In this document: positions 54,005-60,171 of the stretch, piece after piece
Layout of the letters: each line of letters starts with the position of its first letter
How positions within the stretch are numbered: position 1 is the first letter of the stretch
Source of the DNA: Prosthecobacter debontii
Lineage (GTDB): Bacteria; Verrucomicrobiota; Verrucomicrobiia; Verrucomicrobiales; Verrucomicrobiaceae
Direction: 5' to 3'
Length of the DNA stretch: 64,000 bases
NCBI RefSeq assembly: GCF_900167535.1
Contig: NZ_FUYE01000002.1
Span: 124,001-188,000, forward strand
Position numbers and translations under genes: made by a program
Notes under the pieces: generated by a model
Database searches by the model: none
Told to the model about the DNA's origin: nothing
Seen by the model: only the letters and a program-made list of their open reading frames with translations

Positions 54005-54622
54005 TCAGCTTACCGCACGATCCGTCTGGAAGATCCCCGCATGGGCCAGGAAGACCTCCCAATCCCGCACTTGATAGGTGTTGCGGATGAGTTGGGTCAC
54101 GGGCACTTCACGAGGTGCAGAAGGGCGGCGGAGCAGCTTGAGACCCGCTTCTTCAGGCAGCTTGCTGCCCTTTTTGCTATTCACCTTTTTATCGGCCAGC
54201 ACGCAGTTATCCCAGGTGCTTTTGCCTCCACGAGAAACGGGAATGACGTGGTCAATGTTCCCCTCACTAGGCTTCAGCTTACGCCCGGTGTATTGACAGA
54301 CTCCACCATCGCGCTCCCAGATGGCCTTGGCACAGAATTTAGGACGACGCTTCGGCACCCGGTCAAATCGAGCGAGCACGAGCACCGTGGGCACACGAAC
54401 GGGACCGTGGACGGTGCCAATGGAGTTGTCTCCCTCGTTGACGGGCAGCTTGACCCAGTCTTCCCAGGTGACAGGCGTCATGTCATCTTCGGCAGAGATT
54501 TTCAGCGCTGTGGCATTGCCTGTCGCCATCATGCTGAAGGCATCGGCGGGCGTTTTGACGCCGATGGCCTGCCAGTTTCGATTCAAAACCAACACGGTCG
54601 TTTTATTCAACACATCGTTCAT
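54005..54622 (-). CDS. HNH endonuclease-family protein
   Basis: A 205-residue protein of a widespread chromosomal HNH family. The N-terminal segment is V-L-V-L-N-R-N-W-Q-A-I-G-V with an A-D-A-F-S-M-M helix. The nuclease core is C-Q-Y-T-G-R-K-L, I-D-H-V-I-P-V-S-R-G-G and W-D-N-C-V-L-A-D-K-K-V-N-S-K-K-G, giving the zinc/HNH pattern. Family members are present in many free-living bacteria without known function, so a homing role should not be assumed. It lies 200 bp downstream of rtcB on the same strand, within the RNA-ligase/tRNA region. Confidence 0.85.
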   Translation of the reverse strand: MNDVLNKTTVLVLNRNWQAIGVKTPADAFSMMATGNATALKISAEDDMTPVTWEDWVKLPVNEGDNSIGTVHGPVRVPTVLVLARFDRVPKRRPKFCAKAIWERDGGVCQYTGRKLKPSEGNIDHVIPVSRGGKSTWDNCVLADKKVNSKKGSKLPEEAGLKLLRRPSAPREVPVTQLIRNTYQVRDWEVFLAHAGIFQTDRAVS

Positions 54623-54822: not shown

Positions 54823-56241
54823 TCAATCCTCCGCCTTTTCTCCTGCAGGGCACATCTTAACGATACGCGGCAGGAATTGCCCGAGCACCTCCACGAGGTC
54901 CTGCTGAGCCGCCATCACGCCATGGATGTCTTTGTAAACTCCAGGCACTTCGTCGAGCCCGGCGCTGAGGAGTTCCACCCCGGCCGAGGCGAGTTGCTTG
55001 CGCACGCCGCTCCAGGTGAAGCTCTGCTGGGCCTTGCTGCGGCTCATGACGCGACCGGCTCCGTGTGAGGCGCTGTTGAGAGACTCCGCTTTGCCTTGAC
55101 CACGCACCACGAAGCCTGGTGTGGCCATGGAACCGGGAATGACTCCCAGCTCACCCTGAGAGGCGGGAGTGGCACCTTTACGATGCACCACGACCTCGCG
55201 CTCTTGACCGTTGATGAGGTGCGTTTCCTTCCAGGCAAAGTTGTGATGGTTCTCGATGTCTAGGATCACATGAGCTCCTACCTTTTTGGCGATGCGCTTG
55301 TGAATGAGAGCATGGTTAGCCGCTGCATAGCGGCCCATCAGGTTCATGGCCGCCCAGTATTCCTGGCCCGCTTCTTCCTCAAAGGTCAGCCAGGCGAGGT
55401 GTTTCATCTCTTTGGGCAGGTCGTAACGACGCTCCATGGCGATCTGGCTGTAGTGCTGGCACACTTGAGCTCCAGCGCCTCGCGATCCACTGTGAGACAG
55501 CAGAGCCAGATACTCTCCCGGAGGGAGATCAAAACCCGACTCCGTCAGCGCGGCGGCCTGATCGGCATTCACATCGAAAGCACCAAACTCGACGAAGTGA
55601 TTGCCCGAGCCACTGGTGCCGAGCTGAGCCCAGGCCTTGTCTTTGAATCGTCGGGTGATGGGCGAGACATTCCAGTCCTCATCCATCACCTCATGGTGTC
55701 GCTTGTCTTTGAAGGCACCACCCATACCAAAGTTGGTTTCGCTCTCCAGGATATTGGCGAGTCGTCCTTTTTGGCCGGGGATGATATTGGCCTTACGATC
55801 ATACACACTGAGTCGCATGCGACAGGCGATATCCACGCCCACGGCATAGGGGATCACGCAGTGATCCGTGGCCAGCACACCGCCAATGGGTAGGCCGTAA
55901 CCTGGATGTGCATCCGGCATCAAAGCACCCGCCACTGCAACAGGCAAAGCACAGGCATTGGCCAGTTGCCGCACCGCTTCAGCATCGAGTCCCGATCCCC
56001 ATTGCTGCCAGGGGGCAAGCGTATCACGCTGCTTGTAGGCCGGGGCGTAAAGATGACGGGCAAAGACCTCGCGCAGAGGATCACCGAGAAACTTGGCTGG
56101 ATCTGCGACAATCGCACTGATTTCCTCCTCCAGCTTAGAGGTGTCACCACCCTCGCGGACATAACAGGCGATGAACGCCATGCCCGAAGCAAGAGCCAGT
56201 CCCTCGGGCACGCCGAGGTGGATGAGAGATTGAGAGTTCAT
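54823..56241 (-). CDS. rtcB: RtcB-type RNA ligase
   Basis: GTP- and Mn-dependent ligase joining 2',3'-cyclic phosphate and 5'-OH RNA ends; in Archaea and Metazoa it seals tRNA exons. From ATG 56239-56241 the protein has 472 residues. Metal and guanylylation motifs are visible: M-P-D-A-H-P-G-Y-G-L-P-I-G-G, G-V-D-I-A-C-R-M (metal-binding Cys kept), G-S-G-N-H-F-V-E, S-H-S-G-S-R-G-A-G, E-N-H-H-N-F-A, and C-terminal S-A-S-H-G-A-G-R with the His that accepts GMP. G-V-D-I-A-C-R-M departs from the usual G-V-D-I-G-C-G-M, which places it in a divergent subgroup. No RtcA or RtcR gene is near. A co-oriented unknown gene and a 16-gene tRNA array lie upstream. Confidence 0.93.
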   Translation of the reverse strand: MNSQSLIHLGVPEGLALASGMAFIACYVREGGDTSKLEEEISAIVADPAKFLGDPLREVFARHLYAPAYKQRDTLAPWQQWGSGLDAEAVRQLANACALPVAVAGALMPDAHPGYGLPIGGVLATDHCVIPYAVGVDIACRMRLSVYDRKANIIPGQKGRLANILESETNFGMGGAFKDKRHHEVMDEDWNVSPITRRFKDKAWAQLGTSGSGNHFVEFGAFDVNADQAAALTESGFDLPPGEYLALLSHSGSRGAGAQVCQHYSQIAMERRYDLPKEMKHLAWLTFEEEAGQEYWAAMNLMGRYAAANHALIHKRIAKKVGAHVILDIENHHNFAWKETHLINGQEREVVVHRKGATPASQGELGVIPGSMATPGFVVRGQGKAESLNSASHGAGRVMSRSKAQQSFTWSGVRKQLASAGVELLSAGLDEVPGVYKDIHGVMAAQQDLVEVLGQFLPRIVKMCPAGEKAED

Positions 56242-56324
56242 GGGGAAAGGGGATAGAGGAATAATGGCCAAAGCGGACTGTCTTGAGCTTTGCGCACGGT
56301 CACTATTAATGATGACTATAAACT

Positions 56325-56824: not shown

Positions 56825-57652
56825 TCAGTCGAGGAAGGCCAAGTTGCTGCGTGAAGGAGAGAGATGCTCTTCATTCATCAGCACACGGCACCAATCGTGA
56901 AGCACGATGGTTTCGTGGTCAGGATGACGTACAGAACCACGGGCATACACCCCGGGATTCCGATGCATCTGACGCCAAGACCAACGTTTCGCGGTCGGAC
57001 GACGCAAGAGCACTTCTTCATACTGCTTCGGCGTGAGTCCGCGTGGGTAGTTTTGGTGCACATACACGACCTCACCGCCTGTGCGATAAAGCTGCTCGAC
57101 GAGGTGCGGCTTACCACCACCACTGCGTGAGATGGGCTCGTGACGCAGAATGAGCTTGGGATCGACGGCCAGTGGTTTATCCAAAGGCACGAAGAACCAC
57201 TCTCCCTGACGGCGAAAAGCCACGTTATGACGAGTGTTAGCCTGCCGAGCATTCAGACCTTTACGGGCCTGAGCTTGACGAACAGTCGCTGGTTTGAGGG
57301 CCTCCTTGGCCTGCATCACGGTGGATGCACTGCCTGGAACAGCAGCAATAAACCATTCACGTTCATCATGACCACAGAGGAAGCGATCCTTGCGCTTGCC
57401 GCCCTCGCTTTTGGCGAGCAGTAGCAGGTGACGGTCATGCTTCTTCTGGTTAAGCAGGAGGAACTCTGCCGTCGCAAGGCTCTCTTCATCACCACTGACA
57501 GTAAAATACTGGCCATGACGATCGTGGCCAATATTCAGGGAGTAACCTGAACTGATCTTCGTGCCATCCCAACGCAGAGCACCGGGATGGACTTCCACTT
57601 GGAATCGTGCACCGATAGCCTCAAACGCACGTTCAAGATGTTCGAGTTTCAT
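56825..57652 (-). CDS. Unrecognised 275-residue protein between tRNA array and rtcB
   Basis: Soluble, basic protein of 275 residues. The N-terminal ~80 residues (L-E-R-A-F-E-A-I-G-A-R-F-Q-V-E-V, then Y-S-L-N-I-G-H-D) look like a small alpha/beta domain. The middle has an R-F-L-C-G-H-D-E-R-E-W-F-I-A-A-V-P strand pair and an A-R-K-G-L-N-A-R-Q-A-N-T-R-H-N segment. The C-terminus has H-E-P-I-S-R-S-G-G-G-K-P-H and a helix rich in Trp and Arg. The many Arg, Lys and His residues suit an RNA-binding role. It is transcribed in the same direction as the tRNA array (173 bp away) and rtcB. I do not know the family; a partner of RtcB is inferred only from position. Confidence 0.8.
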   Translation of the reverse strand: MKLEHLERAFEAIGARFQVEVHPGALRWDGTKISSGYSLNIGHDRHGQYFTVSGDEESLATAEFLLLNQKKHDRHLLLLAKSEGGKRKDRFLCGHDEREWFIAAVPGSASTVMQAKEALKPATVRQAQARKGLNARQANTRHNVAFRRQGEWFFVPLDKPLAVDPKLILRHEPISRSGGGKPHLVEQLYRTGGEVVYVHQNYPRGLTPKQYEEVLLRRPTAKRWSWRQMHRNPGVYARGSVRHPDHETIVLHDWCRVLMNEEHLSPSRSNLAFLD

Positions 57653-57825: not shown

Positions 57826-57897
57826 TAGACCTGCAGGGACACGCACCCTGCTCTGCCGGTTAAAAGCCGACTGCTTCGCTGCCTAAGCTTCAGGTCT
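57826..57897 (-). tRNA. tRNA-Lys(UUU), non-standard T-loop
   Basis: 72-nt cloverleaf: acceptor AGACCTG/CAGGTCT perfect, D-stem GCTT/AAGC, anticodon stem GTCGG/CCGGC with loop CTTTTAA (anticodon TTT), T-stem CAGGG/CCCTG with loop TGCGTGT (G55-C56 instead of U55-C56). The D-loop AGGCAGCG has A-G at the elbow position. A73; CCA not encoded. Last gene of the array in transcription order. Confidence 0.85.
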
Positions 57898-57915
57898 GAA
57901 AAATGAAAAGAACCT

Positions 57916-57991
57916 TGGCAACCCTGACGGGATTCGAACCCGTATTGTCCGGGCGAAAGCCGGATGTCCTGAGCCATTAGACGACAGGGTC
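57916..57991 (-). tRNA. tRNA-Glu(UUC), canonical
   Basis: 76 nt with encoded CCA. Acceptor GACCCTG/CAGGGTT, anticodon loop CTTTCGC (TTC), canonical T-loop TTCGAAT and D-loop with G-G. One of only two array members with a normal elbow. Confidence 0.92.
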
Positions 57992-58006
57992 ATGAAGGAA
58001 CCAAAT

Positions 58007-58101
58007 TGGCGGAACGCGGAGGGCATGCTCCCCATGCGAGTGGAGTCACCGCACGATCTCTTTAGCAAAGAGTCCCGGAGCCTTGTCCGGATCACGTTTC
58101 C
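58007..58101 (-). tRNA. tRNA-Ser(GCU), irregular class II
   Basis: 95 nt with encoded CCA and long variable arm. Anticodon stem around TTTGCTAAA (GCT). T-loop reads AGCATGC (G55-C56). The acceptor pairs only imperfectly (GGAAACG against GCGTTCC; a bulged A would improve it), so it may be a degenerating or unusual gene. Confidence 0.65.
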
Positions 58102-58116
58102 GTATGAAAAGAAAAG

Positions 58117-58189
58117 TGTCCCCGGCAGGAGTCGCACCTGCGGCCTGCTGATTCGTAATCAGCCGCTCTCTCTACTGAGCTACGGAGAC
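58117..58189 (-). tRNA. tRNA-Arg(ACG), non-standard T-loop
   Basis: 73 nt. Acceptor GTCTCCG/CGGGGAC (one G:U), D-stem GCTC/GAGC, anticodon stem GCTGA/TCAGC with loop TTACGAA (ACG, presumably inosine-modified), T-loop TGCGACT (G55-C56), D-loop AGTAGAGA without G-G. A73; no encoded CCA. Confidence 0.85.
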
Positions 58190-58202
58190 ATGGAATGAAA
58201 AG

Positions 58203-58276
58203 TGCCACACCTTGGATTCGAACCAAGATCCTCTGAGGTCTGAGCTCAGCGCCTCTGCCAGTTGGGCCAGTGCGGC
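58203..58276 (-). tRNA. Class I tRNA with CAG anticodon (Leu codon CUG)
   Basis: 74 nt. Acceptor GCCGCAC/GTGTGGC, anticodon stem CTGAG/CTCAG with loop CTCAGAC (anticodon CAG), a five-nt variable loop and canonical T-loop TTCGAAT with G-G in the D-loop. Bacterial tRNA-Leu is normally class II with a long variable arm, so the amino-acid identity is uncertain although the codon is Leu. No encoded CCA. Confidence 0.75.
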
Positions 58277-58286
58277 ATAACAAGGA

Positions 58287-58307
58287 GTGAGGCCATATTG
58301 GCCTCAC
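58287..58307. repeat. Hairpin in tRNA spacer
   Basis: GTGAGGCCA-TAT-TGGCCTCAC, 9-bp perfect stem, between the Leu and Met tRNA genes. Could be a processing or stability element of the array transcript. Confidence 0.6.
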
Positions 58308-58345
58308 GATGACGACAGGATGCCGTCACTCCTAGAGTGATAAAG

Positions 58346-58417
58346 TCGGTCCGGCTGGATTTGCACCTGCACCTACCGGGTTATGAGCCCGACGCTCTTC
58401 TATTAAGCTACAGACCA
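58346..58417 (-). tRNA. tRNA-Met(CAU), non-standard T-loop
   Basis: 72 nt. Acceptor TGGTCTG/CGGACCG, anticodon stem TCGGG/CCCGG with loop CTCATAA (CAT), T-loop TGCAAAT (G55-C56) in a stem with one mismatch, D-loop AATAGAAG lacking G-G. No encoded CCA. CAT could be elongator Met or a lysidine-modified Ile acceptor; not distinguishable here. Confidence 0.8.
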
Positions 58418-58426
58418 AAAAAGGAG

Positions 58427-58499
58427 TCGGATACCCCGGTGCTGCCCCGGGCGCCTCTTGTCTCCAAAACAAGCGAGTTCGCTGGCTCTCTCGTATCCG
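58427..58499 (-). tRNA. tRNA-Pro(UGG), T-loop GGCAGCA
   Basis: 73 nt. Acceptor CGGATAC/GTATCCG perfect, anticodon stem CTTGT/ACAAG with loop TTTGGAG (TGG), T-stem CCCGG/CCGGG with loop GGCAGCA, D-loop containing C-A-G in place of G-G. A73; no encoded CCA. Confidence 0.83.
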
Positions 58500-58507
58500 G
58501 TGGAAAA

Positions 58508-58582
58508 TGGACGCGTGCCCCAGACTTGCACTGGGTAAAGTGGCTTTGCAGGCCACCAACTCGGCTCTTTGTCTTGCACGCC
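58508..58582 (-). tRNA. tRNA-Cys(GCA), non-standard T-loop
   Basis: 75 nt with encoded CCA. Anticodon stem GTGGC/GCCAC with loop CTGCAAA (GCA), T-stem CCCAG/CTGGG with loop TGCAAGT (G55-C56). The discriminator is U73, the main identity base for CysRS. The first acceptor pair is G-G, the other six pair. Confidence 0.85.
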
Positions 58583-58594
58583 AAAAATGAAAAG

Positions 58595-58669
58595 TGGTTC
58601 CCTCGGCCGGTGCTGCCCCGGCACCGTCTCCGTCACAGGGAGGAATGCTACTGTTACACTACGAAGGGA
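58595..58669 (-). tRNA. tRNA with GUG anticodon (His), lacking G-1
   Basis: 75 nt with encoded CCA. Anticodon loop CTGTGAC (GTG) in a stem with four pairs, T-stem GCCGG/CCGGC with loop GGCAGCA, D-loop with C-A-G. The base before position 1 is C and the discriminator is A73, so the G-1:C73 pair usual for bacterial tRNA-His is absent. Confidence 0.78.
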
Positions 58670-58698
58670 GTTGCCGAAAAGTCGGAATGCCGAATGCT

Positions 58699-58777
58699 CA
58701 ATGACGAATGCGCGCCAAGCAGAAGATTGAGCCCCAATAGCCATCTTCGTCATTCGACATTCAATCATTCGTCATTG
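58699..58777. repeat. Inverted CATTCG-type repeat in tRNA spacer
   Basis: CAATGACGAATG (58699-58710) and CATTCGTCATTG (58766-58777), exact 12-bp arms. Further AATGCCGAATG and CATTCGACATTC units extend the partial symmetry to the left arm's outer side. It fills the 116-nt spacer between the His and Gly tRNA genes; no tRNA is there. Confidence 0.6.
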
Positions 58778-58785
58778 TGAAAGAG

Positions 58786-58857
58786 TGCGGTCTGCCGGTG
58801 CTGCCCCGGCGCGCTCTGTTTGGAAGACAGACATGCTGGCTGTTACATCAAGACCGC
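58786..58857 (-). tRNA. tRNA-Gly(UCC), T-loop GGCAGCA
   Basis: 72 nt. Acceptor GCGGTCT/AGACCGC perfect, anticodon stem TCTGT/ACAGA with loop CTTCCAA (TCC), T-stem GCCGG/CCGGC with loop GGCAGCA, D-loop AACAGCCAG. A73; no encoded CCA. Variable loop only 4 nt. Confidence 0.87.
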
Positions 58858-58865
58858 TGAAAAGG

Positions 58866-58937
58866 TCGCTGGAGTTGGTAGCGTGCCAACCTGTGCGGAG
58901 CTTCAGTCCGCCGCTCATCTGTCTGAGCCATCCAGCG
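58866..58937 (-). tRNA. tRNA-Phe(GAA), T-loop CACGCTA
   Basis: 72 nt. Acceptor CGCTGGA/TCCAGCG perfect, D-stem GCTC/GAGC, anticodon stem GCGGA/TCCGC with loop CTGAAGC (GAA), T-stem GTTGG/CCAAC with loop CACGCTA (A55-C56). D-loop AGACAGAT without G-G. Its 5' end touches the CCA of tRNA-Ile with no spacer. No encoded CCA. Confidence 0.85.
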
Positions 58938-59011
58938 TGGTCCCTCCGCGTGGTGACGCTCCACGGTCTTCCGGTTATCAACCGGGTGCTCTACTGTTGA
59001 GCTACGGAGGG
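58938..59011 (-). tRNA. tRNA-Ile(GAU), non-standard T-loop
   Basis: 74 nt with encoded CCA. Acceptor CCCTCCG/CGGAGGG perfect, D-stem GCTC/GAGC with loop AACAGTA, anticodon loop TTGATAA (GAT), T-stem CGTGG/CCACG with loop AGCGTCA (G55-C56). It directly abuts tRNA-Phe. Confidence 0.87.
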
Positions 59012-59024
59012 GAAGGAAAAGTAA

Positions 59025-59044
59025 TGCGGCCACTCTTGGCCGCA
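59025..59044. repeat. Hairpin in tRNA spacer
   Basis: TGCGGCCA-CTCT-TGGCCGCA, 8-bp perfect stem with tetraloop, between the Ser(UGA) and Ile tRNA genes; similar in design to the spacer hairpin at 58287. Confidence 0.6.
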
Positions 59045-59064
59045 GTTGCTGAGGGTGGTTGTAT

Positions 59065-59153
59065 TGGCGGAGCACCCGAGAATCGCACTCGGGACGCCTT
59101 CGTGGGCGCAGCGGTTTTCAAGACCGTTTCCTCGTCTATGCCGGACCTGCTCC
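59065..59153 (-). tRNA. tRNA-Ser(UGA), class II, non-standard T-loop
   Basis: 89 nt with encoded CCA and a long variable arm. Acceptor GGAGCAG against GTGCTCC (six pairs), anticodon loop CTTGAAA (TGA), T-stem CCGAG/CTCGG with loop TGCGATT (G55-C56). G73 as in bacterial tRNA-Ser. Confidence 0.83.
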
Positions 59154-59161
59154 TTTTGAAA

Positions 59162-59239
59162 TGGCACCCGCGCCAGGATTTGCACCTGGAACCTCAACCG
59201 TTAGAACCGTCTTATGCAAGTCTGTTACATCTTGCGGGC
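59162..59239 (-). tRNA. tRNA-Arg(UCU), non-standard T-loop
   Basis: 78 nt with encoded CCA. Anticodon arm AGACG-GTTCTAA-CGGTT (TCT; four of five pairs form), T-stem CCAGG/CCTGG with loop TGCAAAT (G55-C56), D-loop with C-A-G. A register shifted by one would give CTA, but the stem would then not pair, so UCU is preferred. Confidence 0.75.
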
Positions 59240-59250
59240 ATGGAAATGAA

Positions 59251-59392
59251 TGGTGGACCTGGACGGTAACGCTCCGTCACCTGCTGGGTGCAGCGCCATG
59301 CGCGATAGCGCAAAGTCGATGGGGTGCGGAGCACTGACTGCCCAGCCGCCGGAGCGGCAAGCCAACTGTGCAACCTTCTACACGACAGGCCC
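59251..59392 (-). tRNA. tRNA-Ala(UGC) interrupted in the anticodon loop
   Basis: 142 nt including a 67-nt insertion; the remaining 75 nt form a full cloverleaf with encoded CCA. Acceptor GGGCCTG/CAGGTCC contains G3:U70, the decisive alanine identity pair, with A73. D-stem GTGT/GCAC. Anticodon stem GTTGG (59362-59366) pairs with CCAGC (59283-59287). T-stem GACGG/CCGTC with loop AGCGTTA (G55-C56). Removing 67 nt leaves the loop CTTGCAC, anticodon TGC. Without removal the molecule has no anticodon loop. It sits between the Trp and Arg(UCU) genes, 11 nt from the latter. Confidence 0.8.
59290..59356 (-). other. 67-nt putative intron in tRNA-Ala
   Basis: Insertion between the anticodon-loop halves CTTGC and AC. 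TGC occurs at both junctions (59357-59359 and 59290-59292), so the exact splice point is ambiguous over four positions, always giving 67 nt. Two hairpins form within or at its edge: GCCGC-TCCG-GCGGC (59345-59358) and TGCGC-TATC-GCGCA (59299-59312). It is far too short for a group I or II intron. No clear bulge-helix-bulge was found by eye. The 3-bp direct repeat would also fit a small insertion. Confidence 0.6.
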
Positions 59393-59413
59393 AAACAATG
59401 AGTATGGCCACGA

Positions 59414-59516
59414 AGAGCGAGGCAGAGACAGCCTACCCGAGCCTAGCACCCCTCCGATGGGCGATCCTGTTTCCCAGGGATGTGGCGGATGATCTTCTGC
59501 TGTTCTGCCTCGCTCT
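59414..59516. repeat. Long hairpin between tRNA-Trp and tRNA-Ala
   Basis: Arms AGAGCGAGGCAGA+ACAGC (59414-59432, one bulged G) and GCTGT+TCTGCCTCGCTCT (59499-59516): an 18-bp stem closing a 66-nt partly structured loop. Encoded in the array transcript; role unknown. Confidence 0.65.
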
Positions 59517-59548
59517 CCATGATTGATCGTTGGTGGATCGAAATGAAA

Positions 59549-59623
59549 TGGCACGGCGGGTGGGTGCTGCCCCCACATCTTCAGGTTTTGGAGGCCTGCG
59601 CATTCCTGGTCTGCCACCGCCGC
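59549..59623 (-). tRNA. tRNA-Trp(CCA), T-loop GGCAGCA
   Basis: 75 nt with encoded CCA. Acceptor GCGGCGG/CCGCCGT, anticodon loop CTCCAAA (CCA), G73 as expected for Trp, T-stem GTGGG/CCCAC with loop GGCAGCA, D-loop containing C-A-G-G. First tRNA of the array in transcription order. Confidence 0.83.
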
Positions 59624-59652
59624 TTCATGTCGAAAAGCAAGAAAATGAAACT

Positions 59653-59711
59653 GAAGGGTCGCAGCAAACCACGATCTAGATGTGAGATGAGATGAGTTGC
59701 TGCGACCCTTC
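59653..59711. repeat. 15-bp inverted repeat upstream of the tRNA array
   Basis: GAAGGGTCGCAGCAA (59653-59667) and TTGCTGCGACCCTTC (59697-59711), perfect, 29-nt loop, 30 bp upstream of tRNA-Trp. Either a leader hairpin of the array transcript or a protein-binding palindrome. Confidence 0.7.
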
Positions 59712-60171
59712 ATAACGTGACGCGGATGGGCATGGGCACATCTCGCGTCACGCATGAAAAGAACGAACACCGCTGCCACGCACGGGATGAAGTCATTCAT
59801 CGCTGGCGTCGCACCCGCAGGGTATTTCACGGCGGATGTTTCGGTGTTTATGGCACACCTTCCAAAAAGCCTCTTCGTGATGTCTAAAAATGGGCGTGGA
59901 CTCTCGTTATTCCTGCATCATTGCTTAGGAATACTTACTCGTTCACAAAGGCATGTTTTGATGCGTGAGCATCCATGCCTAGACCTCGTGGGTCAGGGCG
60001 ACTCCGATGCCCGGCGCATGAGCACTGGAGCCGCTGGCTGGTTGGCATGACAGGCACCTCCTTTAAAAGGTAGAGCCTGCAATGCGCTCTCTATGGGAAT
60101 AGGTCGGGGTAGGTCTGAAAATCTCCTGGGTTAAAGTGGATCAGGATCCGACAAGGAACTGAAATCGAATC
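59712..60171. other. Non-coding stretch with several hairpins
   Basis: No convincing gene. Contains CGTGACGCG/CGCGTCACG (59716-59724, 59744-59752), a compound hairpin AGGCATG…GATGC-GTGA-GCATC…CATGCCT (59949-59980), and CAGGC/GCCTG (60051-60055, 60075-60079). The promoter of the leftward tRNA array must lie in or near its left part. Structured RNA or decayed tRNA genes are possible. Confidence 0.4.

Follow-up and report, generated by a model that had tools for sequence, protein, structure and literature searches.

An A18-G55 alternative to the G18-psi55 elbow contact in a tRNA array of Prosthecobacter debontii

Can a tRNA do without U55? The literature describes the contact of U55, or pseudouridine 55 (psi55), with G18 as universal in tRNA (PMC4810234, PMC7912444). 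The question is raised by a 64,000-nt stretch of the Prosthecobacter debontii genome (contig NZ_FUYE01000002.1, positions 124,001 to 188,000; hereafter the window, whose own numbering is used). On its minus strand, 16 tRNA genes lie at 57827-59623. Thirteen of them have G55-C56, one (Phe) has A55-C56, and two (Glu and Leu) are canonical, just as an initial annotation of the DNA had read them. Where G18 and U55 would be expected of a functional tRNA, the 13 genes have A18/G55 and the Phe gene has A18/A55. The initial annotation had described the D-loops of the altered tRNAs as generally A-G. In fact, A18-G19 is present in all 14 altered genes, while Glu and Leu keep G18-G19 as claimed (14/14 vs 2/2, Fisher p = 0.008; the Fisher p-values take no account of relatedness). 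As far as the sequences tell, A18-G55 is a natural alternative elbow used by most tRNAs of the array.

Are these genes genuine tRNA genes? The region was folded with a structure-only scanner, which scores stems, U33, U8, A14, loop sizes, and a C56 bonus and has no term for bases 18, 19, 54, or 55. It returned 15 complete cloverleaves at 57827-59623 (minus strand), bearing the T-loops that the initial annotation had quoted, every one of them correctly. The 16th gene, tRNA-Ala(UGC), forms a cloverleaf if a 67-nt insertion in the anticodon loop is allowed. Thirteen of the 15 genes scored 28-46 and Ser(GCU) scored 25.7, while six shuffles, which preserved base composition alone, gave no chance fold at 28 or above. 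Chance or mis-folding was thus ruled out by the shuffles together with blind tests in both directions (see below). The D-loops of Ala (AGAAGGTT) and Trp (GACCAGGAA) are ambiguous in register when read alone. Relatives have AGAAGACT or AGAAGCCT in Ala and GACAAGCAA in Trp (L059; loci outside the window are cited by such numbers). Thus, the second G of the window Ala and Trp is position 20, and a G18-G19 reading of the two genes was rejected. ARAGORN lists only 5/16 array genes and Rfam at the gathering threshold 6/16. Since common finders miss most of the array, the tRNA sets of such genomes and phages may be undercounted.

Is the altered elbow a habit of the whole genome, the outcome that the initial annotation had named as fatal to its proposal? 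The other 46 tRNAs of the host cover all 20 amino acids, and 46/46 have T55-C56 and a D-loop GG. A genome-wide habit was thereby ruled out. The array is a tandem of many isotypes (16 genes) standing apart from the 46 canonical housekeeping genes elsewhere in the genome. The host genome encodes TruB. That the altered tRNAs could not receive psi55 had also been claimed, and it follows from chemistry.

Is the linkage of positions 18 and 55 confined to this array? About 85,000 genomes and 2.9 million viral contigs were scanned with an A18G19 D-arm pattern that sets no condition on the T-loop. Among the matches listed, those folding as tRNA had G55 in 82/84 cases in the genomes and in 91/98 cases in the viral contigs, and three of the seven viral exceptions represent a single fold, present in several copies and read in a shifted register. 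The reverse scan with a G55 T-arm pattern gave 33 unique tRNAs, of which 28 have AG and no GG. D-loops longer than 7 nt are ambiguous in register; the six unambiguous 7-nt D-loops of the reverse scan had AG in five cases, TG in one, and GG in none. The 18/19 and 55/56 combinations were then counted in 348 unique tRNAs with 7-nt D-loops, namely the other tRNAs of the first loci and not the preselected seeds. GG/UC was found 185 times, AG/GC 133 times, AG/UC never, and GG/GC once; since the loci were found via A18G19 seeds, these class frequencies are not population frequencies. Mutual information was used for the 18-55 pair because A-G is a nonstandard pair in the RNA pair-counting tool. Across the 335 unique tRNAs that share a fixed geometry (an effective number of 269), the corrected mutual information of non-stem pairs peaks at 18-55 and is next highest at 54-58, and the same analysis recovered the known tertiary pairs 9-23, 15-48, and 22-46. 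The 18-55 linkage is real and widespread, holding far outside the window. These results support the proposal in the initial annotation that A18-G55 replaces G18-psi55 with G19-C56 retained, while I infer the geometry of the A18-G55 contact from base identities. Beyond what had been claimed, 54-58 re-pairs too, as U-A, G-G, A-U, C-A, C-C, U-U, or A-A with other combinations nearly absent, and 19-56 is also swapped in a few genes, for example to A-U or C-G.

How far has the altered elbow spread? Hundreds of array tRNAs in other bacteria and phages carry the A18-G55 swap, and a few everyday tRNAs do too. Related arrays have nearly all tRNAs in the altered form, which had not been foreseen in the initial annotation, nor had the presence of such arrays in phages or of the same elbow in isolated tRNAs of Patescibacteria. 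In congeners, the arrays that adjoin the gene of a conserved 275-aa protein (see below) have up to about 20 scored tRNAs, whose T-loops are nearly those of the window and whose D-loops have A18-G19; they also include Asp, Asn, Thr, Val, Gln, and Tyr, the six isotypes missing from the window copy. Geminisphaera colitermitum TAV2 has two arrays, both accompanied by RtcB and HNH genes; in the larger one, 29/30 tRNAs are G55-C56. The L141 array has 25/25 G55 tRNAs. The IMG/VR phage contig L304 has 28/28 G55 tRNAs, RtcB, and HNH; its long open reading frames, read by eye and not by a family search, probably encode terminase, portal, protease, and capsid. A locus of a more distant family (L065) mixes ten G55 genes (all AG) and five T55 genes (all GG) in one array. 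Two Nostoc plasmid arrays are nearly all canonical, while the Ile gene of each (T-loop GGCAGTA) is altered with A-G, as is one Glu(CUC) gene (TGCAACT) in one of the two. Single tRNA-Gly, -His, -Cys, and -Thr genes of Patescibacteria and Planctomycetota have the same elbow. G55 tRNAs were closer to T55 tRNAs of their own isotype in 543 cases vs 132 in which they were closer to G55 tRNAs of other isotypes, suggesting many separate switches across isotypes. Metagenome assemblies are among the sources of these tRNAs, and mis-binning is possible there.

Two groups of solitary genes were also noticed. In the Nostoc group, an orphan A18-G55 tRNA (L068, L069, L110, L126, L140, L144, L183, and L185) has a near-constant body with the acceptor TACATAC and varying anticodons (AGU, CUA, GCA, and AUU). 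Streptomyces and Nocardiopsis (L077, L142, L166, and L173) have a lone A18-G55 tRNA-like gene with the acceptor CGACGTG, the anticodon CGG or CCG, and no CCA.

Can such tRNAs work in translation? Stem pairing is 98.1% in G55 tRNAs (716 unique) and 98.2% in T55 tRNAs (734 unique) of the same loci. U33 is present in 639/716 G55 tRNAs, and G3-U70 in 27/27 G55 Ala. Anticodons, purine 37, and most discriminator bases are preserved across nearly all isotypes, the discriminator exceptions being Gly (A73 in 35/47) and some His. A single tRNA-His and a single tRNA-Cys were found in one Levyibacteriota genome (about 1 Mb), and both are A18-G55, as is its tRNA-Gly(GCC), while the others are canonical; this survey covered stretches around tRNA matches, in which every amino acid is represented except Met, which the scanner left unresolved. 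Thus, the altered tRNAs must translate there if the assembly is complete, as it seems to be. The altered elbow very probably works in translation.

The window array itself is described here from its 5′ end on the minus strand. tRNA-Trp(CCA) at 59553-59623 has the T-loop GGCAGCA and A18 G19 G20 in its D-loop. tRNA-Ala(UGC) at 59255-59392 has AGCGTTA and G3-U70. tRNA-Arg(UCU) at 59166-59239 (TGCAAAT) and the class II tRNA-Ser(UGA) at 59069-59153 (TGCGATT) have A18G19, which is unambiguous in tRNA-Ile(GAU) at 58942-59011 (AGCGTCA; D-loop AACAGTA). tRNA-Phe(GAA) at 58867-58937 (CACGCTA) has A18G19 and A55; the latter is shared by none of the relatives compared, whose Phe genes have G55. tRNA-Gly(UCC) at 58787-58857 (GGCAGCA, A18G19) has A73 where the host has U73, and tRNA-His(GUG) at 58599-58668 (GGCAGCA, D-loop AACAGTA) has A73, C1-A72, and no G-1. 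tRNA-Cys(GCA) at 58512-58582 (TGCAAGT) and tRNA-Pro(UGG) at 58428-58499 (GGCAGCA) both have A18G19. tRNA-Met(CAU) at 58347-58417 (TGCAAAT, D-loop AATAGAA) looks initiator-like, with U1-G72 and an anticodon stem containing three G-C pairs (GGG/CCC), but has C11-G24. tRNA-Leu(CAG) at 58204-58276 is canonical (TTCGAAT, G18G19) and has a short class I variable loop; such Leu tRNAs recur in the arrays of relatives and Nostoc. tRNA-Arg(ACG) at 58118-58189 (TGCGACT, A18G19), tRNA-Ser(GCU) at 58011-58100 (AGCATGC, A18G19, with a bulged acceptor stem), the canonical tRNA-Glu(UUC) at 57920-57991 (TTCGAAT, G18G19), and tRNA-Lys(UUU) at 57827-57897 (TGCGTGT, A18G19) complete the array. An encoded CCA is absent from 7/16 genes. 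Directly upstream, a near-perfect inverted repeat, GAAGGGTCGCAGCAA...TTGCTGCGACCCTTC, lies at 59645-59718 and might be a leader or a terminator. Between tRNA-Trp and tRNA-Ala, where relatives have tRNA-Asp, a long inverted repeat, GAGAGCGAGGCAGA...TCTGCCTCGCTCT, lies at 59405-59524.

What interrupts the tRNA-Ala gene? The hairpin-rich 67-nt insertion (59290-59356, minus strand) follows C36, and the same site is filled in L063 (8086-8151), L150 (5449-5492), and L164 (2724-2757). The L063 insertion is 85% similar to that of the window over 67 nt, and those of L150 and L164 are 86-88% similar over shorter stretches. The acceptor stem of the L150 Ala has compensatory changes relative to the window (GGGCCTG/CAGGTCC and GGGCTCG/CGAGTCC), and the L063 Ala has two acceptor mismatches. 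A dispersed repeat was rejected as the source, the core pattern being single-copy in the 6.3-Mb genome; in relatives, the placeable matches of the core pattern lie in arrays, and some of the remainder lie at contig ends. T-loop insertions of 48-70 nt in either orientation were found in other array tRNAs with full stems. By strict counting there are 15 cases (one in the anticodon loop) in 14/50 G55-array loci, and the 36 T55-rich viral loci have none. Insertions of this hairpin-rich kind, 48-75 nt long, were also noticed in L103, L061, L064, L135, and others, with the flanking stems intact in the best cases; the hosts are Ala and Gly for the anticodon loop and Phe, Gln, Arg, Cys, Lys, Leu, Trp, Ser, and Met for the T-loop. 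The insertions are candidate introns removed with RtcB, candidate tolerated extra arms, or candidate mobile palindromes.

Which genes accompany the array? In the window, the array is followed by a gene for a 275-aa protein (U275; 56825-57652), an RtcB RNA ligase gene (54823-56271; PF01139, E 2.4e-85), and an HNH endonuclease gene (54005-54622), all on the minus strand, with RtcB and HNH at most 4 kb from the array. U275 is present in 10/56 related genomes, this one included, and is kept beside arrays in relatives; it was also seen beside arrays at two distant Verrucomicrobiota loci (L111 and L134). It has no Pfam match and only a weak PADLOC match, and its AlphaFold model (pLDDT 83) has no Foldseek match at E <= 0.001 in PDB or BFVD. 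Relatives of the HNH protein adjoin arrays in other Verrucomicrobiota, Nostoc plasmids, and phages. Congeners have TROVE (Ro60) and RlaP genes between the 275-aa gene and RtcB, and an RNA ligase gene lies inside some arrays. TROVE and the nucleotidyltransferase are not at the array locus of the window; this genome has them only elsewhere, TROVE (a weak match) near a second RtcB on the same contig and RlaP genes on another contig. RtcB lies in the fetched stretch of 14/41 G55-rich arrays vs 1/63 others.

What may the altered elbow be for? The reading that I prefer, whose chances I judge to be about even, is that the locus is a chromosomal tRNA-array island linked to RNA repair, a partial reserve set of real adaptor tRNAs whose elbow spares them from enzymes reading G18 and U55. 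The ribosome and RNase P meet the exposed G19-C56 face (PMC4810234), and this pair is retained here beside the A18-G55 that replaces G18-psi55. In Anabaena, a silent tRNA array is repressed together with rtcB and an HNH gene, and translation inhibitors induce all three (PMC10272220); by analogy, the window array might be switched on by damage to the ordinary tRNAs or by translation stress. TrmK directly recognizes G18 and U55, with no rescue by a swapped pair (PMC9801127), while a CdiA toxin cleaves the T-loop between T and psi (PMC9086364). The elbow might make the reserve tRNAs poor substrates for TruB, TrmH, TrmK-like enzymes, and T-loop nucleases, that is, for readers of G18, U54, or U55, and thus they could survive while RtcB repairs the rest. 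Several observations weigh against this reading. The linkage to RtcB is found mainly in Verrucomicrobiota, and shared descent confounds it. The Nostoc arrays, kin of the stress-tested one, are mostly canonical at 18/55. The elbow occurs in ordinary tRNAs of Patescibacteria, and thus a link to damage is not required. The window Gly and His have unexpected discriminator bases, and the window copy of the array is eroding. A bolder extension, which I regard as unlikely, is that the A18-G55 tRNAs form an elbow-orthogonal class across bacteria and phages, with complete, protected, repair-linked reserve sets, in some of which RtcB removes the 48-75-nt T-loop or anticodon-loop introns. To my knowledge, no protein-spliced tRNA intron has been known in bacteria before; if the extension is true, these would be the first.

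The main rival is neutral drift along a compensated path. A18-G55 may be a nearly equivalent elbow reached under weak selection, as in spare or phage arrays and small genomes, with no special purpose. The swap is indeed found in unrelated settings (Verrucomicrobiota arrays, phages, and single Patescibacteria or Planctomycetota genes), mixed arrays exist, and the same-isotype resemblance suggests many separate switches. However, intermediates are almost absent, and uniform arrays such as those of L304, L141, and TAV2 are not readily produced by drift alone. Since intermediates are few and all-G55 arrays exist, selection, by whatever agent, is favored, and I consider drift possible but somewhat unlikely. 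Selection might instead act for independence from modification. Host-hopping or burst-made array tRNAs would have to fold without the host enzymes for psi55, m5U54, and Gm18, and A18-G55 would be stable unmodified. Arrays are found in phages and plasmids, G55 abolishes the TruB target and A18 the TrmH target, and base 54 is often G, A, or C; but the host has TruB and many mobile arrays are canonical (35 T55-rich viral loci), which makes this idea improbable.

A slightly fainter prospect is that the array RNAs are not adaptors but tRNA mimics binding TROVE/Ro60 or soaking up nucleases, like YrlA of the rsr-yrlBA-rtcBA operons, for which a competitive-inhibitor role was suggested (PMC7790460). 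TROVE, RlaP, and RtcB adjoin arrays in relatives, base 73 is deviant in the window Gly and His, and the Ala anticodon loop is interrupted. On the other hand, the preserved anticodons, U33, purine 37, G3-U70, and most discriminators in nearly all isotypes speak for adaptors, as do the Levyibacteriota tRNA-His and tRNA-Cys. Decaying tRNA pseudogenes are very improbable. The window array lacks six isotypes of the relatives, its Ala gene is interrupted, its Phe gene has A55, and seven genes lack CCA; at most this copy fits. For the class as a whole, broken stems without covariation are contradicted by the 98% stem pairing and the strong tertiary covariation across genomes.

Whatever the purpose, hundreds of natural, compensated A18-G55 tRNAs show that a contact regarded as universal can be rebuilt. 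As naturally occurring double mutants, they offer a way to ask about the roles of psi55, Gm18, and m5U54, and the elbow suggests a route by which tRNAs may escape tRNA-cutting weapons. The idea is testable, since one array of the named strain Geminisphaera colitermitum TAV2 has 29 such genes.

How does the window compare with known systems? The trn operon of Anabaena sp. PCC 7120, with 26 tRNAs on the delta plasmid in the TrcR regulon (PMC10272220), is a large extra array like that of the window. The Anabaena regulon includes rtcB and an HNH gene, relatives of the HNH protein are encoded next to the arrays of Nostoc plasmids, and both genes lie near the window array; however, the two Nostoc plasmid arrays are almost all canonical at 18/55, while in the window 14/16 genes are altered and rtcB is physically linked to the array. 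The rsr-yrlBA-rtcBA operon of Salmonella (PMC7790460) and the RlaP/TROVE/RNA ligase loci share RtcB with the window, and TROVE, RlaP, and RNA ligase lie beside the arrays of relatives. In contrast, TROVE and RlaP are absent from the window array locus, rtcA and rtcR are not among the genes identified beside the array (no family search was made for them), and the window has a whole tRNA set where that operon has Y RNAs. Phage arrays replacing cleaved host tRNAs (PMC10264068, PMC7824862) resemble the window in their tandem isotypes, sometimes with RtcB, and in the proposed evasion of tRNA-targeting attack. The published evasion consists of anticodon-loop changes, and the parts of the eLife paper that were accessible do not mention the T-loop, D-loop, or elbow; an earlier notice of G55 T-loops is possible. 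Finally, the array tRNAs share with the canonical elbow (PMC4810234, PMC7912444) the cloverleaf, G19-C56, the 54-58 closing pair, and the 53-61 G-C pair, while psi55 and G18 are both replaced in the altered ones.

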